Of a stretch of 64,000 nucleotides of DNA, positions 3,434-24,355 are shown piece by piece. Under the pieces are notes generated by a model. The model was given only the letters and a program-made list of their open reading frames with translations. It was not told where the DNA came from and did not search any database. Position 1 is the stretch's first letter. Each line of letters opens with the position of its first letter. A program made the position numbers and the translations under genes. This stretch comes from Eubacteriales bacterium. GTDB lineage: Bacteria; Bacillota; Clostridia; Lachnospirales; Lachnospiraceae. Where the stretch lies: the NCBI GenBank assembly GCA_030524175.1, contig JAUNHC010000009.1, positions 1 through 64,000 on the forward strand. Reading direction: 5' to 3'.

Positions 3434-3476
3434 GAAAACAAACAAAAATCACAGTGAAAAACAAACAAAAACCACA
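3434..3476 (+). promoter_or_regulatory. Tandem A-rich direct repeats (putative DeoR-type operator) before BMC operon
   Basis: Two copies of a 19-nt A/C-rich word beginning AAAACAAACAAAAA and ending CACA start at 3435 and 3458, an exact period of 23 nt (18 of 19 identical). The reverse complement (TTTTTGTTTGTTTT) resembles the T-rich direct-repeat operators of the AgaR/GatR branch of DeoR regulators. They end about 30 nt before the -35 box at 3507. A related pair with the same 23-nt period precedes the aldolase promoter, and a DeoR-type gene lies in the operon. Binding is inferred. Confidence 0.6.
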
Positions 3477-3506
3477 TAAAACACAGGGAATACGTGTTGA
3501 TTCTTG

Positions 3507-3535
3507 TTGACATCAGCTTGTGGATAGAGTATAAT
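3507..3535 (+). promoter_or_regulatory. Consensus sigma-A promoter of the glycyl-radical dehydratase operon
   Basis: TTGACA at 3507-3512 and TATAAT at 3530-3535 are separated by exactly 17 nt, a perfect housekeeping consensus. Transcription should begin near 3541-3543. That places the first in-frame ATG (3544) right at the transcript end with no ribosome site, arguing for the GTG start at 3646. Confidence 0.85.
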
Positions 3536-3645
3536 GGACATACATGAAATGCATGGACAGGCATTCCGGGAAAGCTATGGCTATGGGAGCGCGGAACAGT
3601 TATGACTTTTCCGGGAATCAGTGTCTGCCATGGGAAAGGAGAATT

Positions 3646-6171
3646 GTGGAAAAATTTAATACGACAGATATCCCCAAGTCCTCCAGGATCACAAGACTGG
3701 TGGAACACTTATATGAAAAAATGCCGGTGATTGAGTCTGCCAGGGCGAAACTGCTCACTGAGTCTTATCAGAAGACGGAAGGTGAGCCGATCATCACCCG
3801 CAGAGCCAAAGCATTTGCCCATATCCTGCGGAACATTCCCATCATCATTCGGGATGAGGAACTGATTGTGGGCAGCAGTACCATCGCTCCCAGAGGCTGT
3901 CAGACTTACCCGGAATTTTCGTATCAGTGGCTGGAGGATGAGCTGGACACCGTGGAGACCAGAAGTGCGGATCCCTTCCATATTGAGGAGGAGACGAAAC
4001 AGGAACTTAGAGAGATCCACAAATACTGGAAAGGTAAAACCACCAGTGAGCTTGCTCTTTCCTATATGGCGCCGGAGGCTGTCAAAGCCATTGAGCACAA
4101 TATTTTTACACCCGGGAATTATTTCTATAATGGTGTGGGCCATGTGACGGTGAAATATGAGGAAGTTCTGGCTGTGGGTTACGAAGGCATTATGGAAAAG
4201 GCGAAAGCAGAGCTTTCCAAATGTCAGGTGGGTGACGGAGATTATGGGAAGAAATCCCATTTCCTCCAGGCTGTGATTTTGAGCTGTGAGGCAGTGATTG
4301 ATTATGCCCGGCGCTATGCGCAGCTTGCCCGTGAGATGGCAGCTGCATGTACGTCTGAGGACAGAAAGCAGGAACTTCTCACTATTGCAGAAAACTGCAG
4401 CCATGTCCCGGCTAAAGGCGCCGGGAATTTTTATGAGGCTTGTCAGTCTTTCTGGTTCGTGCAGCAGCTGATCCAGCTGGAGTCCAGCGGGCATTCTATT
4501 TCTCCGGGACGGTTTGACCAGTACATGTACCCGTATTACAAACAAGATATGGAAAAAGGCACCATCACAAGGGAATTTGCCCAGGAGCTGATGGACTGTA
4601 TCTGGGTGAAGTTAAATGACCTGAATAAATGCCGGGATGCTGTGTCAGCAGAAGGTTTTGCAGGATACAGCCTGTTCCAGAATCTGATCGCAGGAGGACA
4701 GAACAGTGACGGCGAGGACGTGACCAACGACCTTTCCATTATGAGTATCTTGGCATCCATGCATGTACAGCTGCCTCAGCCATCCTTATCTGTGAGGGTG
4801 TGGAACGGATCGCCCCATGAATTTCTCATCAAGGCCGCAGAGCTTACCAGGACGGGAATCGGTCTCCCTGCTTATTACAACGACGAGGTGATCATTCCGG
4901 CGCTGCAGAACAGAGGCCTTACCCTGGCAGATGCCAGAGAGTACAACATTATCGGCTGTGTGGAACCTCAAAAAGCAGGAAAGACAGAAGGCTGGCACGA
5001 TGCTGCATTCTTTAATATGTGTCGTCCCCTTGAACTTGTTTTTGCAAACGGTATGGACAAGGGCGAGATGGTGGGGATTCCAACCGGCGATGTGACTAAG
5101 ATGAATACCTTTGATGAGCTGTACGGTGCTTATAAGAGACAGATGGAATACTGTATTTCCCTGCTTGTAAATGCTGACAATGCCATTGATGTGGCTCATG
5201 GAGAACGCTGTCCTCTGCCTTTCTTATCCTGTATGGTAGATGACTGTTTGAAGAGAGGGAAATCTGTCCAGGAGGGCGGTGCTGTCTATAACTTTACCGG
5301 ACCTCAGGGCTTTGGTATTGCCAATATGGCAGATTCTCTTTTTGCCATCCGCAGACTTGTATACGAGGAGCGTAAGGTGACAATGGAGGAGTATAAAGAA
5401 GCTCTGGCATGGAACTATGGCAAGGGAATCGATGAGCAGTCTGCCGCAGAGATCACTGTGGCAATCCTGAAAGAAATGCAGGCTGCAGGTCAGAAGGTGG
5501 ATGAGCAGACGGCGGACACTGTGTTAAAGACTGTGATGAATATCCGGCCGGATGAGCGCAAAGCAGCGAGATACGAAGAGATACATAATTTAATTGAAGA
5601 GGTGCCAAAGTTCGGAAATGATATTCCTGAGGTGGATTATTTTGCAAGAGATGTGGCTTACACCTACACCCGTCCTCTTCAGGATTACAGGAATCCAAGA
5701 GGCGGCCAGTACCAGGCAGGGCTTTATCCTGTGTCGGCCAATGTACCCCTTGGGGGACAGACAGGGGCAACACCTGACGGGCGTTATGCCCACACACCTG
5801 TGGCTGACGGTGTTTCTCCCTCAGCAGGCAAGGATGTGAACGGGCCTACGGCGGCAGCAGCCTCGGTGGCACGCCTTGACCACTTTATAGTGTCAAACGG
5901 AACACTCTTTAATCAGAAGTTTCATCCCTCCGCACTATCAGGAAGAGATGGCCTGGAGAAATTTGTGGCACTTATCCGTTCTTATTTTGACCAGAAGGGA
6001 ATGCATATGCAGTTCAATGTAGTGGACAGGCAGACACTTCTGGATGCCCAGGAGCATCCGGAGAAATATAAGCATCTTGTAGTCCGCGTGGCAGGCTACA
6101 GTGCACTGTTCACCACTCTTTCCCGTTCGCTGCAGGATGATATTATCCGGCGCACAGAGCAGGGTTTTTAG
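3646..6171 (+). CDS. B12-independent (glycyl radical) 1,2-propanediol/glycerol-type dehydratase
   Basis: An 841-residue glycyl radical enzyme (PFL-like plus C-terminal glycine radical domain) that would dehydrate 1,2-propanediol to propionaldehyde inside the microcompartment. The GTG at 3646 is chosen because AAAGGAG sits just before it and the promoter lies at 3507-3535; an upstream ATG at 3544 would be leaderless. From this start the residues are His166 (GHV), Cys438 and Glu440 (IIGCVEPQ, thiyl radical and base), Asp452, and Gly817 (VAGYSA, radical site). These positions agree with those I recall for the Roseburia inulinivorans propanediol dehydratase. GCVEP also occurs in glycerol dehydratase and choline lyase; the His166 and the aldolase/fucose context favour diol. 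No N-terminal encapsulation helix is evident. Confidence 0.9.
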   Translation: MEKFNTTDIPKSSRITRLVEHLYEKMPVIESARAKLLTESYQKTEGEPIITRRAKAFAHILRNIPIIIRDEELIVGSSTIAPRGCQTYPEFSYQWLEDELDTVETRSADPFHIEEETKQELREIHKYWKGKTTSELALSYMAPEAVKAIEHNIFTPGNYFYNGVGHVTVKYEEVLAVGYEGIMEKAKAELSKCQVGDGDYGKKSHFLQAVILSCEAVIDYARRYAQLAREMAAACTSEDRKQELLTIAENCSHVPAKGAGNFYEACQSFWFVQQLIQLESSGHSISPGRFDQYMYPYYKQDMEKGTITREFAQELMDCIWVKLNDLNKCRDAVSAEGFAGYSLFQNLIAGGQNSDGEDVTNDLSIMSILASMHVQLPQPSLSVRVWNGSPHEFLIKAAELTRTGIGLPAYYNDEVIIPALQNRGLTLADAREYNIIGCVEPQKAGKTEGWHDAAFFNMCRPLELVFANGMDKGEMVGIPTGDVTKMNTFDELYGAYKRQMEYCISLLVNADNAIDVAHGERCPLPFLSCMVDDCLKRGKSVQEGGAVYNFTGPQGFGIANMADSLFAIRRLVYEERKVTMEEYKEALAWNYGKGIDEQSAAEITVAILKEMQAAGQKVDEQTADTVLKTVMNIRPDERKAARYEEIHNLIEEVPKFGNDIPEVDYFARDVAYTYTRPLQDYRNPRGGQYQAGLYPVSANVPLGGQTGATPDGRYAHTPVADGVSPSAGKDVNGPTAAAASVARLDHFIVSNGTLFNQKFHPSALSGRDGLEKFVALIRSYFDQKGMHMQFNVVDRQTLLDAQEHPEKYKHLVVRVAGYSALFTTLSRSLQDDIIRRTEQGF

Positions 6172-6231
6172 GAACAAGTGATCAGCCTGTACCAGAATAT
6201 AGCTGCATGTAGTGCGGCTCAGGAGGAAAAC

Positions 6232-7023
6232 ATGGACTATTTAGACAGGACGGGCAGAATATTTGATGTCCAGAGATATTCCATCCATGACGGACCGGGG
6301 ATCAGAACCATTGTGTTCCTGAAGGGGTGTGTCCTTCGGTGCAGGTGGTGCTGTAATCCGGAATCCCAGGACTTTGCAATTCAGACAATGAAAGTCCAGG
6401 GAGAGGATAAGGTGATCGGACGGGATGTGACTGTACGCGAGATGATCGAGGTGGTGGAGAAGGACAGGCCCTGTTATTACCGTTCCGGAGGAGGGCTTAC
6501 TTTGTCCGGAGGGGAATGTCTCTGCCAGCCGGAATTTTCCAGGGATCTTCTGCGGGCAGCCAAAGAGAGAGGGATCAATACTGTTATTGAGAGCATGGCA
6601 TGTGCTTCCTATGAACGGATTGAAGAACTTCTCCCTTACCTGGACATTTACCTGATGGACATCAAACATACAAACCCGGAAAAGCATAAGGAATTCACAG
6701 GAAGAAGCAATGAGATGATGATGGAGAATGCCAGAAGAGTTGCCCTTTCCGGGCTGACGAAGCTGGTGATCCGTGTACCTGTAATCCCTGCTTTTAATGA
6801 CACCATCGGGGAAATCCAGGGGATTGCCCGGTTTGCCGCCACATTGCCCGGGGTAGATAAGATACATCTGCTCCCCTACCACAGGCTTGGGCAGGATAAA
6901 TATGAAGGCCTTGGAAGGACGTATCTGATGGAGGGGATTGAGCCTCCGTCCATGGAGCATATGGAAACATTAAAGAAGGCAGTACATGCAGTATGTAATC
7001 TTGACTGCCAGATAGGAGGTTGA
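6232..7023 (+). CDS. Glycyl-radical enzyme activating protein (radical SAM)
   Basis: A 263-residue radical SAM activase that would generate the glycyl radical on the dehydratase encoded just upstream. The CX3CX2C iron-sulfur motif (CVLRCRWC) is followed by NPES, and the GGGLTLSGGE and MDIKH motifs are typical of PFL-activase relatives. The ATG at 6232 follows CAGGAGGAAAAC; an in-frame ATG at 6178 lacks such a site. Many activases of this class insert two further 4Fe-4S clusters after the first motif; here only about 20 non-cysteine residues separate NPESQ from the next conserved block, so the ferredoxin-like insert is missing. The next gene begins 3 nt after the stop. Confidence 0.9.
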   Translation: MDYLDRTGRIFDVQRYSIHDGPGIRTIVFLKGCVLRCRWCCNPESQDFAIQTMKVQGEDKVIGRDVTVREMIEVVEKDRPCYYRSGGGLTLSGGECLCQPEFSRDLLRAAKERGINTVIESMACASYERIEELLPYLDIYLMDIKHTNPEKHKEFTGRSNEMMMENARRVALSGLTKLVIRVPVIPAFNDTIGEIQGIARFAATLPGVDKIHLLPYHRLGQDKYEGLGRTYLMEGIEPPSMEHMETLKKAVHAVCNLDCQIGG

Positions 7024-7025
7024 AA

Positions 7026-7403
7026 ATGGGATATACAGACAATATGTCACCGGAAGTGAAACAGCGCATTGTACAGGAACTTGTTCCCGGAAAGCAGATT
7101 TCCCTGGCACATATCATCGCCAATCCGGATAAGATTCTTTATACCAAGCTGGGACTTGACCCGGCCATTGAGTATTCCCGCTCTGCTATCGGCATTCTGA
7201 CCATCAGCCCTGCGGAGACTGCTATTATCATGGCAGATATTGCCATTAAATCATCGGGAGTGGACTTAGGGTTTGTGGACAGATTCAGCGGAAGCCTGAT
7301 CATTACCGGTACGGTGTCGGAGGTGGAAGCTTCTGTCAATGCAATTCTGGACTATGTAGGCGAAAAACTGGGATTCGCCGTTTGTCCGGTTACCAGGACC
7401 TGA
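7026..7403 (+). CDS. BMC shell protein, PduU/EutS-like
   Basis: A 125-residue single BMC domain with the N-terminal extension seen in circularly permuted PduU/EutS hexamers (QELVPGKQISLAHIIANP), followed by a BMC core with GILTISPAETAIIMADIAIK and GSLIITGTVSEVEASV. It would form a hexameric facet tile with a capped pore. GGAGG at 7015-7019 precedes the ATG at 7026. It overlaps the downstream GTPase gene at the TGATG junction, so the two are probably translationally coupled. Confidence 0.9.
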   Translation: MGYTDNMSPEVKQRIVQELVPGKQISLAHIIANPDKILYTKLGLDPAIEYSRSAIGILTISPAETAIIMADIAIKSSGVDLGFVDRFSGSLIITGTVSEVEASVNAILDYVGEKLGFAVCPVTRT

Positions 7404-7873
7404 TGAAGAAAATTGTTCTCATCGGCCGCAGTGAGGCGGGGAAAACCACGTTGACCCAGGCACTGCGGGGCGAAAAAATCCATTATCACAAAACCCAGTA
7501 TGTAAATAATTTCGACGTGATCGTGGACACGCCGGGGGAATACGCCCAGACAAAGGGGTTGGGCCATGCTCTGGCATTGTACACCTATGAATCTGATATC
7601 GTGGGACTTCTTGTGGCGGCAACAGAGCCGTATTGTCTCTTTCCCCCTTGTATCACCTGTATGGCCAACCGTGAGGTGGTGGGGATCGTGACAAAAATCC
7701 ACGAACAGGGCGCAAACCTGGAGCGTGCAGCCTCCTGGCTGAAGCTTACAGGATGCAAAAAGATTTTTTATGTGGATTCCAAAACCCAGGAAGGGGTACC
7801 TGAAATCCTGGAATATCTCCGGGAAGAGGGGGATTTGATGCCCTGGGAAAGGGAAAAACCGGAATCACAATAA
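7403..7873 (+). CDS. EutP/PduV-like small GTPase
   Basis: A 156-residue P-loop GTPase of the EutP/PduV family. Walker A GRSEAGKTTL is at the N-terminus, a DTPGEY switch II motif follows, and TKIHE stands where an NKxD-like specificity motif is expected. EutP/PduV proteins are recurrent accessory genes of ethanolamine and propanediol microcompartments; roles proposed for them include positioning on filaments, and an acetate-kinase-like activity for EutP. The ATG at 7403 shares its A with the stop of the shell gene. It is the last gene before the second BMC promoter. Confidence 0.85.
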   Translation: MKKIVLIGRSEAGKTTLTQALRGEKIHYHKTQYVNNFDVIVDTPGEYAQTKGLGHALALYTYESDIVGLLVAATEPYCLFPPCITCMANREVVGIVTKIHEQGANLERAASWLKLTGCKKIFYVDSKTQEGVPEILEYLREEGDLMPWEREKPESQ

Positions 7874-7909
7874 AAACAACATAAATAACACAATAAAAAC
7901 AACACAAAA
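7869..7909 (+). promoter_or_regulatory. Second pair of 23-nt-period A-rich repeats (putative operator)
   Basis: AATAAAAACAACA-Y-AAA occurs at 7869 and again at 7892, the same 23-nt period as the repeats before the dehydratase promoter and of similar A/C-rich composition. The pair lies immediately upstream of the -35 box at 7923, the expected place for an operator of the cluster's DeoR-type regulator (inference). The first repeat overlaps the last codons of the GTPase gene. Confidence 0.55.
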
Positions 7910-7922
7910 CAACAGGTTTCCC

Positions 7923-7951
7923 TTGACTTTTTTTGTGGGATGGAGTAGAAT
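7923..7951 (+). promoter_or_regulatory. Internal sigma-A promoter before the aldolase gene
   Basis: TTGACT (7923-7928) and TAGAAT (7946-7951) are separated by 17 nt. A leader of about 70 nt then reaches the aldolase start at 8029. This gives the aldolase, enzyme and shell genes their own transcription start, independent of the dehydratase promoter. Confidence 0.75.
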
Positions 7952-8028: not shown

Positions 8029-8838
8029 ATGGTAAACGAATTTGAAATCAAAAAACAAATCTGTGACATTGGTAAAAGAATTTACAACCGTAACATGGTT
8101 GCAGCAAACGACGGAAACATCTCTGTAAAACTCAACGACAATGAGTTCCTCTGCACACCTACAGGTGTATCCAAGGGCTTCATGACACCTGAGTACATAT
8201 GTAAAGTAGATGCAAAAGGAAATGTGATCCAGGCAAACCCGGGATTCCGTCCTTCTTCTGAAATCAAGATGCACATGAGAGTTTATGAGAAAAGACCGGA
8301 TGTAGGATCTGTAGTACATGCTCATCCGACTTTTGCTACCAGCTTTGCTATCGCAGGCATTCCGCTGACACAGCCGATCATGCCGGAAGCAGTTATCGCT
8401 CTTGGATGTGTTCCGATCGCTGAATACGGCACACCTTCCACAGTTGAGATTCCTGACAATCTTGAAAAATACCTTCCATATTACGATGCAGTTCTTCTTG
8501 AGAACCACGGCGCACTTACCTGGTCTACAGACCTGTTGGCCGCTTACCTGAAAATGGAATCCGTAGAGTTCTATGCAGAGCTTCTTTACAAAGCCAAAAT
8601 GCTGGGCGGACCGAAGGAATTCGACAAAGAGCAGATCGAAAAACTGTATGAGATCAGAAGAAAAATGGGATTACCGGGCAAACATCCGGCTAACCTTTGC
8701 CAGAATAAAGACGGCGTTAACTGCCATAACTGCGGTGCAAGCTGTTCCTGCGGCGCTGCTGAGGAACCAAAGGCTGCAGATGCAGAATTAGTTGCAAGCA
8801 TCACAAAACAGGTAATGGCTCAGTTAGGACTGAAATAA
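8029..8838 (+). CDS. fucA: Class II aldolase (L-fuculose/L-rhamnulose-1-phosphate type) with C-terminal encapsulation peptide
   Basis: A 269-residue zinc aldolase expected to split fuculose-1-P (or rhamnulose-1-P) into dihydroxyacetone-P and L-lactaldehyde. Glu78, His97, His99 and His160 (SSEIKMH, HAHP, NHGAL) sit exactly five residues after the catalytic Glu73 and zinc ligands His92, His94 and His155 of E. coli FucA. The catalytic domain ends near residue 215. A linker then carries five cysteines within residues 224-241 (Cys 224, 232, 235, 239, 241), followed by an amphipathic helix (AELVASITKQVMAQLGLK) typical of BMC targeting tails. A strong AAGGAGGAAG ribosome site precedes the ATG. Fuculose or rhamnulose preference cannot be settled from sequence. 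Confidence 0.88.
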   Translation: MVNEFEIKKQICDIGKRIYNRNMVAANDGNISVKLNDNEFLCTPTGVSKGFMTPEYICKVDAKGNVIQANPGFRPSSEIKMHMRVYEKRPDVGSVVHAHPTFATSFAIAGIPLTQPIMPEAVIALGCVPIAEYGTPSTVEIPDNLEKYLPYYDAVLLENHGALTWSTDLLAAYLKMESVEFYAELLYKAKMLGGPKEFDKEQIEKLYEIRRKMGLPGKHPANLCQNKDGVNCHNCGASCSCGAAEEPKAADAELVASITKQVMAQLGLK

Positions 8839-8869
8839 TTTGTTGCGAAACATGAAGGAGGACAATCTC

Positions 8870-10258
8870 ATGCCAATCAGTGATAACATGGTACAGGAAA
8901 TTGTACAGGAAGTTATGGCAAAAATGCAGATTGCGGACGCTCCGGCCGGAAAACATGGAATTTTTAAAGATATGAATGAAGCGATCGAGGCTGCCAAGAA
9001 AGCTGAGACCATCGTAAAAAGAATGTCCATGGACCAGAGAGAAAAAATCATTACCTGCATCCGCAAAAAAGTGAAACAGAATGCGGAAATCTTTGCACGT
9101 ATGGGTGTGGACGAAACCGGAATGGGAAATGTTGGGGATAAAATCCTGAAACACCATCTGGTGGCAGACAATACACCTGGTACGGAAGACATTACCACAA
9201 CCGCATGGTCCGGGGACAGAGGACTGACCCTGGTGGAAATGGGACCGTTCGGTGTGATCGGAGCCATCACTCCCTGCACAAACCCAAGTGAGACAATTTT
9301 GTGCAACACCATCGGAATGCTGGCAGGAGGAAATACAGTAGTATTTAACCCGCACCCGGCAGCCATTAAGACATCTATCTATGCAATTAATCTGGTCAAC
9401 GAGGCTTCCCTGGAATCCGGCGGCCCGGACAATATTGCAGTGACAGTTGAAAAACCAACCTTAGAGACAAGTAATATTATGATGAAGCATAAAGACATTC
9501 CGCTCATCGCAGCCACAGGCGGCCCCGGCGTGGTTACCGCAGTGCTTTCCTCCGGAAAGAGAGGAATCGGCGCAGGTGCAGGCAATCCTCCTGCATTGGT
9601 TGACGAGACAGCAGATGTCCGTAAAGCTGCTCAGGATATTGTAAACGGATGTACCTTTGACAACAATCTGCCTTGTATCGCAGAGAAAGAAATTGTGGCA
9701 GTATCTTCCGTTGTGGATGAACTGATGCATTATCTGGTATCAGAGAATGACTGCTATCTGGCGTCAAAGGAAGAACAGGACAAGCTGATCGAGACCGTAC
9801 TGCCGGGAGGCAGACTGAGCCGTAAATGTGTGGGACGTGATGCAAAGACATTGCTCTCCATGATCGGCGTCAATGTACCGTCAAACATCCGCTGCATCGT
9901 GTTCGAAGGACCAAAGGAACATCCATTAATCGCAACTGAGCTTATGATGCCTATACTTGGTGTTGTAAGAGCAAAGGATTTTGATGATGCGGTAGAACAG
10001 GCTGTATGGCTTGAGCATGGCAACCGCCATTCCGCACACATCCATTCCAAAAACATTGACAATATCACAAAATATGCGAAGGCAATCGACACTGCGATTC
10101 TTGTAAAGAATGCCCCTTCCTATGCAGCACTTGGTTTCGGCGGAGAAGGCTTCTGTACCTTTACCATCGCAAGCCGTACTGGCGAGGGCCTGACAAGCGC
10201 AAGCACTTTCACTAAGAGAAGACGCTGCGTAATGTCTGACAGTCTTTGCATTCGCTAA
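8870..10258 (+). CDS. pduP: CoA-acylating propionaldehyde dehydrogenase, PduP-like
   Basis: A 462-residue aldehyde dehydrogenase that would convert propionaldehyde (or lactaldehyde), NAD+ and CoA to propionyl-CoA in the compartment lumen. The N-terminal helix DNMVQEIVQEVMAKM followed by an Ala/Pro/Gly linker is a classic encapsulation peptide. The catalytic cysteine is Cys269 in NNLPCIAEKE, as in PduP/EutE, and the GPFGVIGAITPCTNP and TGGPGVV segments fit the NAD/CoA site. GAAGGAGG before the ATG at 8870 decides the start over an ATG ten codons upstream. Length matches PduP (about 464 residues). Confidence 0.92.
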   Translation: MPISDNMVQEIVQEVMAKMQIADAPAGKHGIFKDMNEAIEAAKKAETIVKRMSMDQREKIITCIRKKVKQNAEIFARMGVDETGMGNVGDKILKHHLVADNTPGTEDITTTAWSGDRGLTLVEMGPFGVIGAITPCTNPSETILCNTIGMLAGGNTVVFNPHPAAIKTSIYAINLVNEASLESGGPDNIAVTVEKPTLETSNIMMKHKDIPLIAATGGPGVVTAVLSSGKRGIGAGAGNPPALVDETADVRKAAQDIVNGCTFDNNLPCIAEKEIVAVSSVVDELMHYLVSENDCYLASKEEQDKLIETVLPGGRLSRKCVGRDAKTLLSMIGVNVPSNIRCIVFEGPKEHPLIATELMMPILGVVRAKDFDDAVEQAVWLEHGNRHSAHIHSKNIDNITKYAKAIDTAILVKNAPSYAALGFGGEGFCTFTIASRTGEGLTSASTFTKRRRCVMSDSLCIR

Positions 10259-11515: not shown

Positions 11516-11830
11516 ATGGCAGAAGCTGTAGGGATTTTAGAAGTGTTCGGGCTGACAACAGCCTTCGTAGCAGGCGATGCCGGATGCAAGGCAGCCAATG
11601 TCCGCCTGGAGGTGTTCGATAAGAATAAGCCTGCCAACGCAGACAGCCTGCCGGTACCCCTTCTTGTGTGCATCAAATTCCGGGGCAGTGTCACAGATGT
11701 GACTGCTGCTGTAGAAGCCGGGATGGAAGTTGCAGAGAGAATGACAGGAGTGGTACAGCACTATGTGATTCCGAATCCGGAAGAGGGTACGGAGAAAATG
11801 CTGAAGATCAGCGCTTTGGATAAGGTATAG
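11516..11830 (+). CDS. BMC-H shell protein (divergent)
   Basis: A 104-residue single-domain BMC protein. The N-terminal AVGILEVFGLTTAFVAGDAGCKAANV and RGSVTDVTAAVEAG segments match the BMC fold, but an insertion (DKNKPANADSLPV) lengthens the loop between the first helix and the central strand relative to the PduA-type neighbours. It is probably a minor hexamer-forming tile with an altered face or pore. The ribosome site AAAGGAG precedes the ATG; 112 nt separate it from the next shell gene. Confidence 0.85.
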   Translation: MAEAVGILEVFGLTTAFVAGDAGCKAANVRLEVFDKNKPANADSLPVPLLVCIKFRGSVTDVTAAVEAGMEVAERMTGVVQHYVIPNPEEGTEKMLKISALDKV

Positions 11831-11942: not shown

Positions 11943-12218
11943 ATGGCACAGGAAGCATTAGGAATGGTAGAGACCAGAGGACTTACCGCTGCAATCGAAG
12001 CAGCAGACGCAATGACAAAAGCTGCTGAGGTTACACTGGTAGGAACAGAGAAAATCGGTTCCGGTCTTGTAACTGTTATGGTACGCGGAGATGTAGGCGC
12101 TGTTAAGGCAGCTGTAGAGAGCGGAAGCGCAGCAGCATCCAGACTTGGAGAACTGGTGGCAACACACGTGATCCCAAGACCGCACAATGATGTTGAGAAA
12201 ATCCTGCCTTCCATCTAA
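11943..12218 (+). CDS. pduA: Major BMC-H shell protein, PduA/PduJ-like
   Basis: A 91-residue canonical BMC-H protein ([18 protein letters not shown] at the N-terminus, [18 protein letters not shown] around the pore loop). It would be a major hexamer of the shell facets. It is almost identical to the 92-residue core encoded from 12777 downstream, so the pair corresponds to the PduA/PduJ duplication. AGGAGG precedes the ATG. The symbol is by similarity; PduA and PduJ cannot be told apart here. Confidence 0.92.
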
Positions 12219-15444: not shown

Positions 15445-15505
15445 AAATCCACAGGGGATATCTCTATGGCCATCCGGCCCTTATTAATGAAAGGACGTGC
15501 AGAAC

Positions 15506-16926: not shown

Positions 16927-18064
16927 AATGAGAACCGTCATCCATTTTGGTGACAACGCTCTGGACAGACTGAAACAGCTTCCATATAAGAGAGTCCTGG
17001 TTATCACAGACCCTTTTGTAGTCCAGAGTAAAATGATAGATTTGATTACCGCCCCTCTTGACAGTGCGGGAATCGCATATGATATTTTTCACGATGTAGT
17101 TCCGGATGCACCGGTTGATAAAATTGCAGAGGGTGTGAAAAAGTTCCTTCAGTATCAGCCTGAGGCTGTGATCGCAGTAGGCGGCGGTTCAGCCATTGAC
17201 TCATCAAAGGCAATCCGGGAATTTGCCCTGAAAATCAACAATTACGGTGAGGTTGGCCTGATCGCCATTCCCACCACCAGCGGTACTGGCTCAGAGGTGA
17301 CTTCCTTTGCAGTGGTAAATGACACGGATGCCAAGGTGAAATATCCTTTGGTATCGGACAGTCTGACAGCAGACGAAGCCATTCTGGATGCAGAACTGGT
17401 GAAAAGTGTGCCGCCGGCCATCACAGCAGACACAGGTATGGATGTGTTCACCCATGCACTGGAGTCCTATGTGAGTACCGAGCATAATGAGTTTTCTTCT
17501 GCACTTGCGGAAAAATCCATAGAAATCTGCGGAGTTTTCCTGCTCCGTGCATATCTGGACGGCAGCGATATGCATGCCCGCCAGAAAATGCATGTTGCCT
17601 CCTGTCTTGCAGGACTTTCCTTTAACACAGCAGGACTTGGGATCACTCACAGCATGGCTCATCAGCTGGGGGCTGTGTTCCACATTCCTCACGGACGCGC
17701 AAATGCCATGCTGCTTCCTCATATTGTGGAGTTCAACGCAGACGTGAACAAGCACAGCAGAAGCCAGAAGGAATATCTGCCCGCTGTTAAAAGATATTCC
17801 AATATTGCCCACGTGCTGGGACTTAGCAATTACAACAAGGTAATGAGTGTACGCTCCCTGGTGAACTGGATACAGTTTATGCAGAAGGAGATGAATATTC
17901 CACTGACCATACAGGAACTTGGCACCATCACTCCGGATGCGTATTTTGCAGCTGTTGACAAGATGGCCGATGCTGCACTTGCTGATACCTGTACGGCAAA
18001 TAATCCAAGAGTTCCCACAAAAGAGGATATCGTTAAGATATACACGAAACTGTGGTCATTCTAG
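16913..18064 (+). CDS. pduQ: Iron-dependent alcohol dehydrogenase PduQ-like
   Basis: A 383-residue group III alcohol dehydrogenase expected to reduce propionaldehyde to 1-propanol and regenerate NAD+. The cofactor motif AVGGGSAIDSSK and TTSGTGSEVT are present, and iron ligands are supplied by the DxxxH-type segment (DTGMDVFTHALES) and the two later histidines (ITHSMAHQLG, HIPHGRANA). No added targeting helix is seen, as for Salmonella PduQ, which is held by shell contact. It overlaps the regulator gene, indicating one transcript. Confidence 0.9.
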   Translation: MKTFEMRTVIHFGDNALDRLKQLPYKRVLVITDPFVVQSKMIDLITAPLDSAGIAYDIFHDVVPDAPVDKIAEGVKKFLQYQPEAVIAVGGGSAIDSSKAIREFALKINNYGEVGLIAIPTTSGTGSEVTSFAVVNDTDAKVKYPLVSDSLTADEAILDAELVKSVPPAITADTGMDVFTHALESYVSTEHNEFSSALAEKSIEICGVFLLRAYLDGSDMHARQKMHVASCLAGLSFNTAGLGITHSMAHQLGAVFHIPHGRANAMLLPHIVEFNADVNKHSRSQKEYLPAVKRYSNIAHVLGLSNYNKVMSVRSLVNWIQFMQKEMNIPLTIQELGTITPDAYFAAVDKMADAALADTCTANNPRVPTKEDIVKIYTKLWSF

Positions 18065-18070
18065 AGTCCC

Positions 18071-18203: not shown

Positions 18204-19868
18204 ATGATGAGATCAAAAAGAATCGAGACTTTGGACCAGAGGGCGGTAAACAAGGACGGATTCATTGACGAATGGCCGGAGATGGGCTTTGCGGCAATGC
18301 ATAGTCCTTATGACCCTAAGCCTTCTGTGACAGTCGAAAATGGTAAAATTACAGAGCTGGACGGAAAGAAAAGAGCGGACTTTGATTTCCTTGATCAGTT
18401 TATTGCAGATTATGCCGTCCGTATTGACCGGGCGGAGGCTTCCATGGCTATTCCATCACTGGAAATCGCCAGGAAGATTGTTGATATCCAGACACCCCGG
18501 AAGGAAATCCTGGACATTGTTTCAGGCATCACCCCGGCGAAAATGGCTGAGGTGATCAACCATTTAAATGTGGTGGAGATGATGATGGGCATGCAGAAGA
18601 TGCGTGCAAGAAAAGTGCCGGGAAACCAGGCGCACATCACCAATCTCAAGGATGATCCGGTCCAGATAGCAGCTGATGCTGCAGAAGGAGCACTCCGTGG
18701 CTTCAGCGAGGAAGAGACAACAACAGGTGTGGCAAGATATGCACCTTTTAACGCAATTGCACTTCTTATCGGCTCTCAGGTTGGGCGCAAAGGTGTTCTG
18801 ACTCAATGTGCTGTCGAGGAAGCTACTGAGCTGGAGCTTGGCATCAGAGGTCTTACCACTTACGCAGAGACCCTGTCCGTGTACGGTACAGAGAAGGTTT
18901 TCATTGACGGCGACGACACTCCCTATTCTAAGGCATTTCTTAATTCTGCTTATGCGTCAAGAGGACTGAAAGTCCGTTTCACCTCAGGCTCAGGCTCAGA
19001 GGTTCTGATGGGTAGCAGTGAACGGAAATCCATGCTTTATCTGGAATGCAGATGTCTCTATGTGACGAAAGGGGCAGGCTCCCAGGGAATCCAGAACGGT
19101 TCTGTGAGCTGTATCGGTGTGGCGGCCAGTGTGCCTTCCGGCATCAGAGAGGTGATGGGAGAAAATCTTGTAGCTGCTCTTCTGGGACTGGAATGCGCTT
19201 CTTCTAATGACCAGAGCTTTTCTAATTCCGATATGAGAAGAACTGCAAGGACCATGCTTCAGTTTATGCCGGGAACTGACTTTATTTTCTCCGGCTATGC
19301 GGCAGAGCCCAACTATGACAATATGTTTGCAGGCTCCAATTTTGACGCAGAAGATTTTGACGATTACAATGTACTCCAGAGAGATATGCAGGTTGACGGC
19401 GGATTGCGTCCGGTAACAGAAGAGGAAGTCATTCGTGTGCGCCGTGAGGCAGGCCGGGCTGTTCAGGCTGTATTCAAATATCTTGGCCTTACGGAAGTGA
19501 CAGATGAGCAGGTGGAGGCAGTAACCTATGCCCATGGAAGCAAGGATACTCTGAAACGTGACGTGGCATCTGATCTGATGGCTGCAGATGACCTCATGAA
19601 GCGCGGCGTTACAGGCATTGATGTGGTGAAGGCTTTGGCAGAGAGCGGTTTTACCGACCTGGCAGAGAGCATCCTCAATATGCTGAAGCAGCGTGTCATC
19701 GGGGATTATATGCATACGGCAGCTATTCTGGATGAGAATTTCCAGGTAATGTCCGGGGTAAATACACCAAATGATTATATGGGGCCCGGAACTGGTTACC
19801 GTGTAACCGGAAAACGCTGGGAGGAGATCAAAGCGATTCCTCACAGGATCAATGTAAATGATTTTTAG
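18204..19868 (+). CDS. pduC: B12-dependent propanediol dehydratase, large subunit
   Basis: A 554-residue catalytic subunit, the same length as enteric PduC/DhaB1. It forms the TIM barrel that holds adenosylcobalamin and substrate and dehydrates 1,2-propanediol or glycerol through a radical. Conserved stretches include the N-terminal RSKRIETLDQRAVNKDGFI, the VPGNQAH segment, TSGSGSEVLMG and CLYVTKGAGSQGIQNG. AGAAGGTAGA precedes tandem ATGs. It is the first gene of a compact pduCDEGHO set placed after a full B12-independent BMC set. PduC and DhaB1 cannot be separated from sequence alone; the context favours propanediol. Confidence 0.93.
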   Translation: MMRSKRIETLDQRAVNKDGFIDEWPEMGFAAMHSPYDPKPSVTVENGKITELDGKKRADFDFLDQFIADYAVRIDRAEASMAIPSLEIARKIVDIQTPRKEILDIVSGITPAKMAEVINHLNVVEMMMGMQKMRARKVPGNQAHITNLKDDPVQIAADAAEGALRGFSEEETTTGVARYAPFNAIALLIGSQVGRKGVLTQCAVEEATELELGIRGLTTYAETLSVYGTEKVFIDGDDTPYSKAFLNSAYASRGLKVRFTSGSGSEVLMGSSERKSMLYLECRCLYVTKGAGSQGIQNGSVSCIGVAASVPSGIREVMGENLVAALLGLECASSNDQSFSNSDMRRTARTMLQFMPGTDFIFSGYAAEPNYDNMFAGSNFDAEDFDDYNVLQRDMQVDGGLRPVTEEEVIRVRREAGRAVQAVFKYLGLTEVTDEQVEAVTYAHGSKDTLKRDVASDLMAADDLMKRGVTGIDVVKALAESGFTDLAESILNMLKQRVIGDYMHTAAILDENFQVMSGVNTPNDYMGPGTGYRVTGKRWEEIKAIPHRINVNDF

Positions 19869-19879: not shown

Positions 19880-20575
19880 ATGGAGATAAATGAACAACTG
19901 ATTCGTGCCATTACCAATGCGGTTGTGGAGCAGCTTAAGATAAATAATGCACAGCCCGGGACCGCAGTTCCCAGCACCATGCAGGGACAGTCAGGTACTG
20001 ACAGTCTGGCCGGGAAAACACGGATGCGTCCCAAACGTTCCTATGACGGTGCAGTAAAAGCCGTACAGGGCACAGATCCAAAAGAAGTGGTGATCGGTGT
20101 GGGAGCTGCTTTCCAGACAGAGATCAATGCCACTATCTGCGGAATCCCTCTTGACGAGGTACTGCGCAATGTTCAGGCAGGCATTGAGGAGGAAGGAATG
20201 GTTTCCTGTGTGGTAAAGGTTCTTGATACCTCAGACGTGGCCTTTATGGCGCTGCAGGCAGCTAAGCTGTCCGGCTCGGGAATCGGGATCGGCATCCAGT
20301 CCAAGGGTACTACAGTCATCCATCAGAAGGATCTGTATCCATTGACAAACCTGGAGCTTTTCCCCCAGGCACCTTTGATGGATCTGGAAACCTACCGGAA
20401 GATAGGCAGAAATGCCGCCAGGTACGTAAAAGGGGAAAAGGTCACTCCCATTGAGTGTACCAACGACCCTATGGTCCGTGCCAAATTCCAGGTTAAGGCT
20501 GCCTTGATGCACATCATTGAGACAGAACAGCTTGACCCTGAGAAGGGCATGATCATATGGGAGGGTGCAAAATGA
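19880..20575 (+). CDS. pduD: B12-dependent propanediol dehydratase, medium subunit
   Basis: A 231-residue medium (beta) subunit. The N-terminal helix EQLIRAITNAVVEQLK plus a Gly/Ser/Thr-rich linker up to about residue 50 is the encapsulation peptide that carries the whole enzyme into the shell. The cobalamin-contact domain starts near KEVVIGVGAAFQTEIN. TTAGGAGG precedes the ATG. The stop overlaps the pduE start (ATGA). Confidence 0.92.
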   Translation: MEINEQLIRAITNAVVEQLKINNAQPGTAVPSTMQGQSGTDSLAGKTRMRPKRSYDGAVKAVQGTDPKEVVIGVGAAFQTEINATICGIPLDEVLRNVQAGIEEEGMVSCVVKVLDTSDVAFMALQAAKLSGSGIGIGIQSKGTTVIHQKDLYPLTNLELFPQAPLMDLETYRKIGRNAARYVKGEKVTPIECTNDPMVRAKFQVKAALMHIIETEQLDPEKGMIIWEGAK

Positions 20576-20967
20576 GCAATTATCCTTTAGGACAGAACGA
20601 AGCCGGAACCATCACCTCCAAGACTGGGAAACAGCTTTCCCAGATCACTCTGGATGAGGTAAAACGCGGCAATGTGACTGCAGAAGACATTAAAATATCA
20701 TCAGAAATGCTGAAGCGTCAGGGCCAGGTGGCATCAGCTGCCGACAATCCCCAGATGGAAGCAAATTTTGAAAGAGCGTCAGAACTTGTGAATGTTCCTG
20801 ACGATGTGATCCTTAACATGTATAATAAGCTTCGCCCCAACCGTTCCACCAAGAATGAACTGGTTCTTATGGCAAAGGAACTGTTGGAGAAATACCAGGC
20901 ACCTCATTGTGCCAAGCTGGTATTGGAAGCTGCTGAAATTTACGAAAAAAGGGGAATCCTTCTTTGA
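20572..20967 (+). CDS. pduE: B12-dependent propanediol dehydratase, small subunit
   Basis: A 131-residue small (gamma) subunit, shorter than enteric PduE (about 170) because it lacks the N-terminal extension and starts directly at the YPLGQNEAGTI core. The helical core with ASELVNVPDDVILNMYNKLRPNRST is well conserved. The ATG at 20572 overlaps the pduD stop and has GGGAGGGTG upstream. Its stop overlaps the TTG start of pduG. Confidence 0.9.
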   Translation: MSNYPLGQNEAGTITSKTGKQLSQITLDEVKRGNVTAEDIKISSEMLKRQGQVASAADNPQMEANFERASELVNVPDDVILNMYNKLRPNRSTKNELVLMAKELLEKYQAPHCAKLVLEAAEIYEKRGILL

Positions 20968-22772
20968 AACTGATTGCTGGTGTTGATATCGGAAATTCCA
21001 CAACTGAAGTATGTATCGGCGGCGTGGAGGAAAACGGAGCCTTCCGTTTCCTCTCCAGCGCTTCCCGTATGACCACAGGGACAAAAGGAACACTACCAAA
21101 TGTCCTGGGGATCAAGGCGGCACTTCTGGAGGCCATGGACAAAATCAGGCAGCCCTTAAGTGCTCTTGATTTAGTGCGCTTAAACGAGGCGGCTCCGGTT
21201 ATCGGTGACACTGCAATGGAGACGATCACAGAAACCATTATCACGGAATCTTCCATGATCGGACATAACCCCTCCACTCCGGCAGGAGCCGGGGAGGCTG
21301 TGGGAGAGCTTATTTCTCTGGATAATATCTGGAAGGGAAAGCCGGGTGTCCCTTATATTGTAGCAGTTTCCAACAGATTTTCCTATGAAGAGGCGGCAGC
21401 CAGGCTGAACCAGCATATGCCGGATCTGGATGTGCGGGGGCTGATCTTACAGTCAGATGAGGCAGTCCTGGTGGAGAACCGCTTAAGCAGAAAGATTCCC
21501 ATTGTGGATGAGGTACGCCATATCAGTAAGGTCCCGGAGGGGAAACAGGCAGCCATCGAGGTGGCTTTGCCGGGAACCAGCATCCGAATGCTGTCAAATC
21601 CCTATGGAATTGCCACACTGTTAAAACTCAACGCTGACGAGACAAAGGCAGTGACACCCATTGCCAAAAGTCTTGTGGGAAAAAGGAGTGCAGTGGTGAT
21701 CCGTACTCCTCACGGAAATATCAGAGAAAATGTCCTTCCCGCAGGGGAGATCACCTTCCGGGGTGACAGAGATCTTACAGTAAATATTGATGCCGGAGCA
21801 GACGGAATCATGGATACCCTGAAGTCTGCCGGAGAAATCCGGGATATTGACGGACAGCCGGATACCAATGTGGGAAATATGCTCACACGGATCAAGACCA
21901 GTATGGCTGACGTGGCTAAGGCCCACGACAGCGAAATACGGATCACAGATATCCTGGCAGTGGATACCCTGGCTCCGGTGGAGATATCAGGTGCTCTTGC
22001 AGGAGAGACCTGCATGGAAAAGGCAGTGGGCATTGCCGCCATGGTAAGGACCCAGCATCTTCCCATGCAGAAGATAGCAGAGAAGCTGGAACAGGAGTTG
22101 AAAGTGAAAGCGGTGGTGGCCGGAGTGGAAGCAGTGATGGCCTCCCTGGGGGCTTTAACTACCCCTGGAACGAGACTTCCCCTGGCTATTCTGGATATGG
22201 GCGGCGGTTCTACAGATGCGGCAGTTCTGGAAGCTGACGGTCAGGTATGCACCACTCACCAGGCAGGTGCAGGAGAATTGGTTTCCATGCTGATCCAGAC
22301 AGAGCTTGGCTTACATAGCCGTGTGACAGCAGAGCAGATAAAGAAATATCCTATGGGCAAGGTTGAGAGTCTCTTTCATATGAGGCTGGAAAACGGTTCC
22401 ATGGAATTTTTCCAGGAATCCATTGATCCGAGATATTATGGACATGTGGTGCTCCTGGCGCCGGGAGAGATGCTGAAGGTGGAGGAAGATATCCCCATGG
22501 AAAGAATCCTTGAGGTGCGCAGAGATGCCAAGAGAAAGGTCTTTGTCCGAAATGCCCTTCGGGCCTTGGAGACAGTTGCTCCTGACCATGATCTGAGAAA
22601 GATTCCCAATGTGGTTCTGGTTGGCGGCTCGGCAGAGGATTTTGAGATACCGGAGATGCTGATGGAAGCTTTGTCAGAATACCGTATTGTGTGCGGAAGA
22701 GGAAATATCCGGGGGACAGAAGGTCCCAGAAACGCGGTGGCAACAGGGCTTCTCATGTCCTATCTGGCATAA
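20964..22772 (+). CDS. pduG: Diol dehydratase reactivase, large subunit
   Basis: A 602-residue Hsp70-like ATPase that removes damaged cobalamin from the dehydratase. The N-terminal GVDIGNSTTEVCIGG phosphate loop and the C-terminal LDMGGGSTDAAV loop are the actin-fold ATP motifs. The start is a TTG that overlaps the pduE stop (TTGA), giving the family-typical MKLIAGVDIGN; GGGGAA lies upstream. Length is close to the usual 610. Confidence 0.92.
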   Translation: MKLIAGVDIGNSTTEVCIGGVEENGAFRFLSSASRMTTGTKGTLPNVLGIKAALLEAMDKIRQPLSALDLVRLNEAAPVIGDTAMETITETIITESSMIGHNPSTPAGAGEAVGELISLDNIWKGKPGVPYIVAVSNRFSYEEAAARLNQHMPDLDVRGLILQSDEAVLVENRLSRKIPIVDEVRHISKVPEGKQAAIEVALPGTSIRMLSNPYGIATLLKLNADETKAVTPIAKSLVGKRSAVVIRTPHGNIRENVLPAGEITFRGDRDLTVNIDAGADGIMDTLKSAGEIRDIDGQPDTNVGNMLTRIKTSMADVAKAHDSEIRITDILAVDTLAPVEISGALAGETCMEKAVGIAAMVRTQHLPMQKIAEKLEQELKVKAVVAGVEAVMASLGALTTPGTRLPLAILDMGGGSTDAAVLEADGQVCTTHQAGAGELVSMLIQTELGLHSRVTAEQIKKYPMGKVESLFHMRLENGSMEFFQESIDPRYYGHVVLLAPGEMLKVEEDIPMERILEVRRDAKRKVFVRNALRALETVAPDHDLRKIPNVVLVGGSAEDFEIPEMLMEALSEYRIVCGRGNIRGTEGPRNAVATGLLMSYLA

Positions 22773-22790: not shown

Positions 22791-23156
22791 ATGGTTGTAA
22801 ACAAGCCCACAATTATTATATATACCAATGAACCGGATGAAGACTTCACACGTGAGGTGTGCGCGGGAATTGAGGAGGAAGGGGTTCTGTACCAGGTTCT
22901 GCCCCATGAGGGAGATTTAGATACTCTGGCTTATGAGGCGGCAAAGGAATCTATGCTGGGCTCCGGAGTCGGGATTTATGGTTCCAGGCTGGCCATGCAG
23001 ATGCAGCACCTTCCAAAAGGAAAAAATGTTTTTGAACTGGACGGACCCAGGTTCTGGCAGTGCCGGAATCTAGGAGCAAACAGTGCAAGAGCCATTAAGA
23101 AAATGCCATTTAAACCAGTATACGGCCAGGGGGAAAATCCCAAGGCATATACATAG
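22791..23156 (+). CDS. pduH: Diol dehydratase reactivase, small subunit
   Basis: A 121-residue small subunit homologous in fold to the dehydratase medium subunit (PTIIIYTNEPDEDFTREVCAGIEEEGV, then GSGVGIYGSRLAM). It swaps with PduD during reactivation. GGGAGG 9 nt before the ATG fixes the start. It follows pduG by 18 nt. Confidence 0.9.
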   Translation: MVVNKPTIIIYTNEPDEDFTREVCAGIEEEGVLYQVLPHEGDLDTLAYEAAKESMLGSGVGIYGSRLAMQMQHLPKGKNVFELDGPRFWQCRNLGANSARAIKKMPFKPVYGQGENPKAYT

Positions 23157-23176
23157 ATCACGGGGGATGAGCCGTT

Positions 23177-24274
23177 ATGAATATTTATACAAAGAACGGA
23201 GATAAGGGTACCACAGACCTGATCCGTACAAAAAATGTCTCCAAGTCGGATGACCGCATCCAGCTTGTGGGTACCATAGACGAGCTGACAAGTCATCTGG
23301 GCGTGGTAAAAACCATGCTTAAGGATGCTGATATCATCCACATCCTGGAGAAAATCCAGGGAACGTTGATTACGGTGATGGCAGGAGTGGCAGACCCTTA
23401 TAACAGAGACTATAAGATAAATGATGATAAGACAGAAGTTCTGGAGGGGGAAATTGACCGTCTGGAAGGGCTGTTTGACCGTCCTAAGAAATTCATACTG
23501 CCGGGAACCAGCCGCCTTTCCGCTGAAATCGATGTGGCCCGGACTGTGGCCCGCAGGGCCGAAAGGGCATTGGCAGCTGTCAGCGTGAAATTCGGCGCAG
23601 ATACAGGAACAAAGAAGTATATGAACCGGCTGGCCGACTATCTCTATGTGCTGGCAAGGTATATAGATGCAAAGGAGTCAGGCAGCAAAGGGGAAAGTAC
23701 CGAAGCCGGCCACGTTGGAGCCGTAAGTGCAGGTTCCGGAGCAGCAGGAAATACAGGCGTGACGGCATCAGGTTCAGGGAGCGGAGCAGTTATGGGAGAA
23801 AATGGAAACGGAGCGGTGAGTGAGACTGTCATCCAGGAAGTGTTAAAACGCATAGGCATTCAGGGCAGGATAACCCTGGACGCTTCCAAGCGCCTCATAG
23901 AAAAAATAGAGCAGGAAGCAGCCCGCCGCGGCAAAAAGGCTGTGATCGCTGTCTGCGGCCCGGACGGGAATCCCATTGCAGTTCATGTGATGGACGGTGC
24001 TTTTCTGGTAAGCTTCGATGTGGCTGTGAAAAAGGCATACACCTCTGTAGCCGTTAAGATGTCCACCATGGAACTGAGCGCACTTGCCCAGCCAGGGGGT
24101 ACTTTCTACGGCGTGGATAAGATGGACGGCGGAAAGATCGTCATCTTCGGCGGCGGGGTGCCCATCAAAGCGGGAGACGTGATTATCGGCGGCTTGGGCA
24201 TAAGCGGCGGAACAGGAGAGGAAGACCACAGCTTGGCTGAGTATGGGCTTTCTGTGCTGAATGAAGTTTTATAA
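23177..24274 (+). CDS. pduO: PduO: ATP:cob(I)alamin adenosyltransferase fused to GlcG/HbpS-like domain
   Basis: A 365-residue two-domain protein. Residues 1-165 are a PduO-type adenosyltransferase (YTKNGDKGTTDL ATP motif, RRAERAL helix) that makes adenosylcobalamin for PduCDE. Residues about 167-213 are a Gly/Ser/Ala-rich linker. Residues from about 215 are a GlcG/HbpS (DUF336) domain (RITLDASKRLIEKIEQEA, then DGAFLVSFDVAVKKAYTSVA) thought to bind heme or cobalamin. It completes a B12 recycling set with PduS and ends the locus just before a strong terminator. Confidence 0.92.
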   Translation: MNIYTKNGDKGTTDLIRTKNVSKSDDRIQLVGTIDELTSHLGVVKTMLKDADIIHILEKIQGTLITVMAGVADPYNRDYKINDDKTEVLEGEIDRLEGLFDRPKKFILPGTSRLSAEIDVARTVARRAERALAAVSVKFGADTGTKKYMNRLADYLYVLARYIDAKESGSKGESTEAGHVGAVSAGSGAAGNTGVTASGSGSGAVMGENGNGAVSETVIQEVLKRIGIQGRITLDASKRLIEKIEQEAARRGKKAVIAVCGPDGNPIAVHVMDGAFLVSFDVAVKKAYTSVAVKMSTMELSALAQPGGTFYGVDKMDGGKIVIFGGGVPIKAGDVIIGGLGISGGTGEEDHSLAEYGLSVLNEVL

Positions 24275-24285
24275 ATAAATGAACA

Positions 24286-24355
24286 TGATACCAGGGCAAA
24301 AAGGGAGCCGGGGCAGGTACTGTCCTTTCCCGGCTCCCTTTTTACCCTGGTATCA
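24286..24355 (+). terminator. Strong terminator of the BMC locus
   Basis: Two 27-nt arms (24286-24312 and 24329-24355) are complementary with a single mismatch; the arm contains GGGAGCCGGG and a T-run (CCCTTTTT). It works in either direction in principle, and lies immediately after pduO. Confidence 0.9.

Follow-up and report, generated by a model that had tools for sequence, protein, structure and literature searches.

In silico analysis of a 64,000-nucleotide stretch of DNA (positions 1 to 64,000 of contig JAUNHC010000009.1, assembly GCA_030524175.1, Eubacteriales bacterium, Lachnospiraceae; hereafter the window) revealed, in a gut Blautia, a bacterial microcompartment (BMC) locus that carries two unrelated diol dehydratases. 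The locus spans approximately 3507-24393, on the + strand throughout, and holds the genes of a fucose/rhamnose BMC of the GRM5 type, all named genes being in frame. An intact glycyl radical enzyme (GRE) with its activase is located at 3646-7023, and an intact pduCDEGHO cassette at 18204-24274 of the same locus. This dual locus is a conserved and frequent variant of the GRM5 fucose compartment. An earlier note, made from the sequence alone, had proposed a B12-independent and a B12-dependent dehydratase system in a single locus, and this was borne out, as the genes are complete, their motifs are kept and their order is conserved in relatives. The gene content also agrees with its proposal that one shell, one aldolase and one set of downstream enzymes are common to both dehydratases. 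We consider it probable, on balance, that the two signature enzymes of this GRM5-type fucose/rhamnose compartment are functionally equivalent, co-induced and interchangeable.

In the proposed pathway, the aldolase would cleave fuculose- or rhamnulose-phosphate to yield lactaldehyde, which the zinc alcohol dehydrogenase (Zn-ADH) would reduce to 1,2-propanediol. Either the GRE or the adenosylcobalamin (AdoCbl)-dependent PduCDE would then convert the diol to propionaldehyde for PduP, PduL and PduQ. The sugar would induce both modules together through one regulator, probably the DeoR protein of the locus, and both enzymes would be cargo of the same shell, as the N-terminal helix of PduD and the insert of the GRE suggest. 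The enzyme that carries the flux would be set post-transcriptionally, by cofactor loading, reactivation and radical damage, rather than by a B12 switch. Certain lineages would later have dropped or relocated one enzyme, and the locus would represent a living intermediate in signature-enzyme exchange.

Integrity of the two dehydratase systems

The source genome, attributed here to Blautia, comprises 5.95 Mb in 119 contigs; among named relatives, Blautia schinkii DSM 10518 is the closest in its locus proteins (93% over 1729 columns). The genes follow one another as listed below, with four shell proteins between the Zn-ADH and PduL.

3436..3476, +, operator-like repeats at promoter P1, two AAACAAACA and one AAAACCACA (repeat-site count against simulation)
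3507..3535, +, promoter P1, TTGACA-17-TATAAT, 12/12 consensus (promoter scan)
3646..6171, +, glycyl radical 1,2-propanediol dehydratase (GRE), with an insert of about 55 amino acids read as an encapsulation peptide (domains, structure match, motifs)
6178..7023, +, GRE activating enzyme, radical SAM (domain matches)
7020..7403, +, EutS/PduU-like shell protein (domain matches)
7382..7873, +, PduV/EutP-like GTPase (domain matches)
7873..7914, +, operator-like repeats at promoter P2, three AAAACAACA (repeat-site count)
7923..7951, +, promoter P2, TTGACT-17-TAGAAT, 10/12 (promoter scan)
8029..8838, +, class II aldolase, fuculose/rhamnulose-phosphate type, with a C-terminal encapsulation-like helix (domain matches, sequence inspection)
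8840..10258, +, PduP-type CoA-acylating aldehyde dehydrogenase (domain matches)
10277..11491, +, Zn-ADH, putative lactaldehyde reductase (domain matches)
11516..11830, +, BMC shell protein (domain matches)
11943..12218, +, BMC-H shell protein (domain match)
12250..12546, +, BMC-H shell protein (domain match)
12558..13055, +, BMC-H shell protein with N-terminal extension (domain match)
13125..13769, +, PduL phosphate propanoyltransferase (domain matches)
13845..14111, +, EutN/CcmL pentamer shell protein (domain match)
14116..15444, +, PduS, RnfC-like flavoprotein; likely start ATG 14116, open reading frame opening at 14065 (domain matches)
15497..16054, +, PduT, two BMC domains (domain match)
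16123..16926, +, DeoR-family regulator (domain matches)
16913..18064, +, PduQ-like iron alcohol dehydrogenase (domain matches)
18204..19868, +, PduC, large subunit of the B12-dependent diol dehydratase (domains, structure match, residues)
19880..20575, +, PduD, medium subunit, with an N-terminal encapsulation-type helix (domains, sequence inspection)
20557..20967, +, PduE, small subunit (domain matches)
20964..22772, +, PduG, diol dehydratase reactivase alpha (TIGR04491, 905 bits)
22791..23156, +, PduH, reactivase small subunit (PF02288)
23177..24274, +, PduO, corrinoid adenosyltransferase with an HbpS-like domain (domain matches)
24368..24393, +, terminator-like hairpin of 10 pairs with a run of seven T, end of the locus (terminator scan)

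The GRE carries domains PF02901 and PF01228, and both active-site motifs are kept, namely the GCVEP cysteine and the RVAGYSA glycine. Its best solved relative is the diol dehydratase 5i2a, with residues 38-874 of the long open reading frame aligning to chain residues 4-840. The two are colinear over 837 positions, while query residues 623-676 have just five counterparts in the glycerol dehydratase 1r8w; the internal insertion of about 60 residues that marks GRM5 enzymes (encapsulation peptide) is thus present. The start is most likely GTG 3646, predicting a protein of 841 amino acids, because ATG 3544 coincides with the predicted transcription start of P1, the 5i2a alignment begins at residue 38 of the long frame and AAAGGAGAA precedes the corresponding position in 14/16 upstream regions, window counted. 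A GRE with a recoded TGA was considered and rejected: the in-frame stops in 18 relatives were taken to lie 5' of the gene, since all 18 matches begin at or before query residue 30 and the real start is at about 35 (positions deduced from match starts). The activase (281 amino acids) matches Radical_SAM and Fer4_12 only and so lacks the PF00037 ferredoxin insertion, as expected for GRM5.

PduC matches PF02286 at 1008 bits and diol dehydratase 1dio from 2-553 to 1-552. Nine residues that we take to be those of the Klebsiella diol enzyme (Q141, H143, E170, E221, Q296, S301, D335, Q336 and S362) are all present, assuming the numbering shift of one that the 1dio match implies. PduD, PduE, PduG, PduH and PduO are all complete, and both dehydratases look active as judged from these features.

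Both sets are under purifying selection. Between the window and the B. schinkii locus (L061), the ratio of nonsynonymous to synonymous substitution (dN/dS) was 0.037 for GRE, 0.050 for the activase, 0.017 for PduC, 0.063 for PduD, 0.053 for PduG and 0.092 for PduO, rough values given that dS exceeds 1. In shallower pairs of dual loci, pN/pS was 0.046 for GRE and 0.009 for PduC (L075/L076) and 0.032 and 0.005, respectively (L116/L080). PduC shows no extra relaxation in the dual state, with pN/pS of 0.005-0.067 in six dual pairs and 0.029-0.088 in five PduC-only pairs. Inactivation of one set by mutation, which would have undermined the earlier note, therefore finds no support in reading frames, active-site residues or selection.

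Distribution and descent of the dual locus

The related loci were the best 80 of 141 retrieved from a species-level genome collection with PduS as query, so that the presence of PduS in all 80 is by construction; they overlap with a set of 64 Blautia genomes, and the two samples are not independent. Fifty-one of the 80 loci were readable at both ends, 15 being dual, 15 carrying GRE only, 11 PduC only and 10 neither; the remaining 29 were cut at one or both ends or, in the case of L114, held the activase without GRE. The comparison of gene neighbourhoods that the earlier note had called for, i.e., for pduCDE at the 3' end of GRE loci, thus yielded 15/80 dual loci besides the window. All have both cassettes in identical order, indicating that the arrangement is not due to chance. 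The statement that BMC loci normally carry one type holds for published BMC types and has to be qualified for Blautia, where the dual form is frequent. Dual loci include those of B. schinkii DSM 10518, B. caecimuris DSM 29492 (L076), Blautia sp. XA-2221 (L075) and a Eubacterium draft genome (L102). Misassembly was rejected as an explanation, the order being identical in isolate and draft records from independent projects. GRE and PduC were found on one contig, 13-15 kb apart, in 14/64 genomes of the genus.

The Zn-ADH served as locus anchor and was found in 46/64 genomes. All 46 anchored genomes carry GRE and/or PduC, compared with 5/18 un-anchored ones (Fisher p 6.5e-10, kinship uncorrected), which argues that either dehydratase suffices and that none does not. 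Locus-type GRE (79-100% identical) is accompanied by PduC in 18 of these genomes and stands alone in nine, while 10 have PduC only, seven a distant GRE only (68-69%) and two the distant GRE plus PduC; independence of GRE and PduC among them gave p 0.009, also with kinship uncorrected. No dehydratase was visible in 28/80 loci. When the genomes behind 20 of those were searched, PduC was found in 16 and GRE of at least 68% identity in seven, with at least one of the two in 19/20.

Several other genomic contexts were observed. Seven of the 16 PduC cassettes (L170-L176, four of them named Mediterraneibacter) were read over 15-20 kb; they are stand-alone and comprise pduCDEGH with a partial pduO match and a PduD N-terminus of the encapsulation type, and no window shell protein matched nearby in any of the seven. 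A second, distant GRE with its activase (68-69% to the window GRE) occurs in 10/64 genomes of the genus. In six stretches of 5.9-19 kb around it (L143, L144, L145, L146, L158 and L159) no locus gene matched besides the activase, and in L143 its neighbour is an alpha-galactosidase-family gene. In G078, from another genus of the family, pduCDEGHO is directly followed by GRE and activase, head to tail (L147:7413-17112, -), and window shell proteins were unmatched in that 20-kb stretch; the combination of GRE and PduCDE thus exists in at least two layouts. A search of plasmids with pduQ-C-D gave 91 matching records; identity was 60-80% for 90 of these, mostly from Citrobacter and Klebsiella.

A locus tree was built from five shared locus proteins in 72 rows, excluding L162 as well as L148 and L151, which lie on the same contigs as L070 and L118; L148, L151 and GRE matches shorter than about 450 residues were likewise excluded from the GRE tree. 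When changes were counted on the tree, L082, L112 and L117 were scored as GRE-absent rather than unknown, as their 2.06-2.19 kb of upstream sequence should show the activase. Dual loci are spread across the whole of a Blautia-centred clade of 50 rows, down to its earliest branch (L102, L108). Both states are known for 40 clade rows, namely 16 dual, 12 PduC only, 10 GRE only and two neither, and the genomes of the latter two (L093, L104) carry the distant GRE. At minimum, GRE presence changed five times (43 rows known) and PduC presence four times (46 rows known), counts that by themselves do not distinguish gain from loss. Agreement with the locus tree amounts to 16/26 splits for GRE and 17/29 for PduC-D-G, against maxima of 2 and 3 in 300 label shuffles, and both enzymes thus mostly descended with the locus. 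A dual ancestor of the clade, followed by losses, would be the simplest account and is most likely.

The same record may be read as transient redundancy, in which a PDU (1,2-propanediol utilization) cassette merged with a GRM5 locus and is decaying to one enzyme, the pair having no function. Repeated loss (at least five GRE and four PduC changes in the clade), retention of pduO after loss of pduCDEGH in nested loci and the somewhat higher pN/pS of GRE in dual pairs would fit this scenario. However, both sets are under purifying selection in the dual state, PduC is not relaxed and dual loci span the clade from its earliest branch; we thus regard it as quite improbable.

As to remnants, PduO persists immediately 3' of PduQ in nested loci without pduCDEGH (L070, L086, L090, L091 and L094). 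The leftover PduO keeps the RRAER adenosyltransferase motif, and its N-terminal motif is altered in L091 and L094. An activase is retained at L114:2187 in a locus without GRE, the genome having a GRE elsewhere. A search for GRE or activase remnants 5' of the aldolase, made in 16 loci that lack GRE and have 2 kb or more of upstream sequence (L125-L140 excluded), gave a best E-value of 1.0, not above chance.

Promoters, cofactor supply and the choice between enzymes

The repeat 9-mers occur at 10 sites in the 64 kb (both strands), six of which form two clusters of three, at P1 and P2, whereas 200 first-order Markov simulations gave a mean of 3.2 sites and never three within 50 bp. A promoter of 11/12 or 12/12 consensus was found in 19/28 GRE upstream regions, window included. 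The clade comparison covered 16 GRE upstream regions (L148 kept) and 46 aldolase upstream regions, the window being included in each; AAAACAACA is present in 34/46 aldolase regions, and at least one repeat 9-mer in 37/46 aldolase and 15/16 GRE regions. The relocated GRE of G042 (L150) retains a 12/12 promoter and one repeat 9-mer. Between pduQ and pduC, the gap measures 11-178 bp in 31 relatives with a whole pduQ match, and its sequence is unconserved. Given this variability and the 11 bp found in L072 and L122, pduCDE is expected to be read with the P2 operon. Since the GRE and aldolase promoters share repeats and pduCDE follows pduQ without a conserved gap, both dehydratase systems look co-induced. 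A conserved RNA element 5' of pduC was also considered, and was rejected because gap length and sequence vary and no Rfam family matched anywhere in the 64-kb window. A hairpin with a T-rich 3' side, read by eye and not listed by the terminator scan, lies between pduQ and pduC (window 18065-18160). It is also present in L061 (CCTGGC...GCCGGGTCTTTT), is unconserved in other relatives and may damp read-through in the window and L061.

The earlier note had suggested that B12 drives the choice of enzyme, GRE being used when the vitamin is lacking and PduCDE when it is present. Two cofactor classes side by side and the presence of PduO and PduGH are in line with such a switch, and among the 51 dehydratase-bearing genomes of the genus PduC was more common with CbiC (32/46) than without it (1/5; Fisher p 0.047). 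However, this association rests on five genomes, several of them incomplete, and kinship is uncorrected. Moreover, the window lacks any Rfam match, no conserved gap precedes pduC and both promoters bear the same repeats. The source genome does have three cobalamin riboswitches above cut-off, none of them on the contig of the window. It also holds a cobamide operon with CbiF, G, H, J-E-T, A, B, P and C and, nearby, CbiM and a CbiO-CbiK-like fusion, although several of these matches fall below NCBI curated cut-offs; neither CbiL nor CbiD turned up in the 20-kb cobamide stretch, no search having been aimed at either. Since CbiC is also widespread (57/64 genomes; 33/34 among genomes with completeness of 90% or more and contamination of 5% or less), lack of B12 would be a weak reason for keeping GRE, and a B12 switch seems very unlikely. 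Retention of GRE could still depend on a shortage of cobalt, on the type of cobamide or on energy cost. PduS, which had been counted as a sign of B12 use, does not serve as one, given that a survey passage records it in 57/57 GRM5 loci (PMC6325248). Two fused proteins were noted in the cobamide stretch, at L153:15958-17634 (-) and L153:2593-4566 (+), namely a CbiO-CbiK-like fusion of a cobalt-transport ATPase with a cobaltochelatase-like domain and a CbiJ-CbiE-CbiT triple fusion.

Oxygen is another candidate determinant. Both enzymes would be made, and PduCDE with its reactivase would carry the flux wherever microoxic conditions destroy the glycyl radical. Glycyl radical enzymes and their activases are described as extremely oxygen-sensitive in a passage of Zarzycki 2017 (PMC5311937), and the shared repeats suggest the co-induction that this scenario needs. 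Nevertheless, GRE-only and PduC-only relatives both persist, and no oxygen sensor turned up among the scanned locus proteins, though no search by name was made; oxygen insurance thus appears unlikely as the main explanation, while retaining some plausibility.

A partition of substrates, with GRE acting on internal, deoxysugar-derived propanediol and PduCDE on imported glycerol, other diols or the other enantiomer, could be suspected from the scores of PduC, 852 bits against glycerol dehydratase 1iwp and slightly less, 818, against diol dehydratase 1dio. Yet PduC agrees with the diol enzyme at all nine residues examined, and no transporter family matched among the scanned locus proteins. Furthermore, at least 11 loci are PduCDE-only with the same aldolase, so that PduCDE must serve the sugar pathway there unless a GRE lies elsewhere, as in G042. 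We therefore find such a partition unlikely. A deoxysugar role is consistent with an L-fucose isomerase inside the window (about 37.9-39.7 kb) and an L-rhamnose isomerase on the same contig. In the region 37896-45311 the L-fucose isomerase is followed by an esterase and an aceric-acid-hydrolase-like enzyme, the latter below its curated cut-off, which suggests use of rhamnogalacturonan or fucosylated glycans. Other neighbours are a LytTR response regulator and a GHKL histidine kinase at 24544-26539, directly 3' of the locus terminator, and an N-terminal fragment of an IS110-type transposase near the contig start (window 342-881).

A number of observations weigh against the preferred reading of two co-induced, interchangeable enzymes. 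The operators and the role of DeoR are putative, and expression, encapsulation and activity are predictions from sequence. Exact repeat 9-mers are absent from 9/46 aldolase and 1/16 GRE upstream regions. The promoter and terminator scan of 7700-24600 was not above chance (25 vs 19.4 and 20 vs 16.2 expected), and within it a promoter-like site inside pduQ (17058, 10/12) may provide pduCDE with a separate promoter. GRE pN/pS is higher in dual pairs (0.032-0.160, six pairs) than in GRE-only pairs (0.019-0.054, five pairs, mostly shallower), so a slight relaxation of GRE in dual loci is possible. Some GRE branches conflict with the locus tree, with L091/L094 grouping with L070/L092, and recombination is therefore part of the history. 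Finally, many of the relatives are fragmented draft genomes, and one of the 20 searched in full, G145, has neither enzyme.

Relation to known compartments

The locus resembles the GRM5 loci of Clostridium phytofermentans and Roseburia inulinivorans in its GRE, short activase, class II aldolase (PF00596), Zn-ADH (PF08240/PF00107), PduP, PduL, PduT, PduS, DeoR and kind of shell. The GRM5 loci of these two species lack pduCDE and pduGH in the part of PMC3557285 that describes them, whereas here a complete pduCDEGHO follows the operon. GRM5 is defined by a single signature enzyme without pduCDE, and the present locus is hence a GRM5 variant and not a plain member. With the PDU BMC it has PduCDE, PduGH, PduO, PduP, PduL, PduQ, PduS and PduT in common; it differs by the sugar-phosphate aldolase, the Zn-ADH and the GRE, and by a DeoR-family regulator in place of PocR, no PocR match being found among the scanned locus proteins. 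Aldolase BMC loci with PduCDE are also represented by the fucose/rhamnose locus of Clostridium methylpentosum, in a passage of PMC6620236, and by L154 and L155. In L154 and L155 pduCDEGHO is placed between the aldolase and PduP, and the 20-kb stretches gave no GRE match; in the window, by contrast, the cassette occupies the 3' end of a locus that also has a GRE.

A precedent for a BMC locus with both signature types is given in Axen 2014 (PMC4207490), where a passage mentions one exceptional PDU/GRM fusion, listed in Dataset S1. According to an excerpt of a 2022 short-chain fatty acid study (PMC9403272), 28 genomes of Clostridiales and one of Bacillus encode both dehydratases. A section of Sutter 2021 proposes an interchange of signature enzymes between PDU1AB and GRM4. 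Pairs of unrelated enzymes for one reaction in one genome are exemplified by MetH/MetE and the ribonucleotide reductases in a passage of PMC6461909; in contrast to such pairs, both enzymes are encoded here in one BMC locus, in which operator-like repeats are shared and no riboswitch was found. In the open-licence literature, subscription papers being outside coverage, no description of this conserved dual arrangement was recognised.

The dual locus runs counter to two published views. A passage of Zarzycki 2017 states that, to its authors' knowledge, GRM3 and PDU clusters never share a genome, a mutual exclusion made for GRM3. A passage of Ravcheev 2019 (PMC6620236), which reports PduCDE in the C. 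methylpentosum fucose locus, places the dehydratase outside the fucose pathway on account of the absence of PduCD from some loci. The presence of GRE, PduCDE or both in all 46 anchored genomes argues instead for the dehydratase step being part of the pathway, one that either enzyme is able to perform.

Our broader proposal, to which we give slightly less than even credence, is that of an ancestrally bi-functional metabolosome: one shell with two mechanistically unrelated radical dehydratases, co-induced by deoxysugars, which would run with or without AdoCbl and through oxygen stress, one enzyme having been repeatedly shed or relocated by descendants. Blautia holds dual, GRE-only, PduCDE-only and in-trans versions of the locus, so that signature-enzyme exchange and the value of B12 independence are testable in cultured strains such as B. 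schinkii DSM 10518 and B. caecimuris DSM 29492. If the proposal is true, the genus would offer a natural series for the exchange of BMC signature enzymes.

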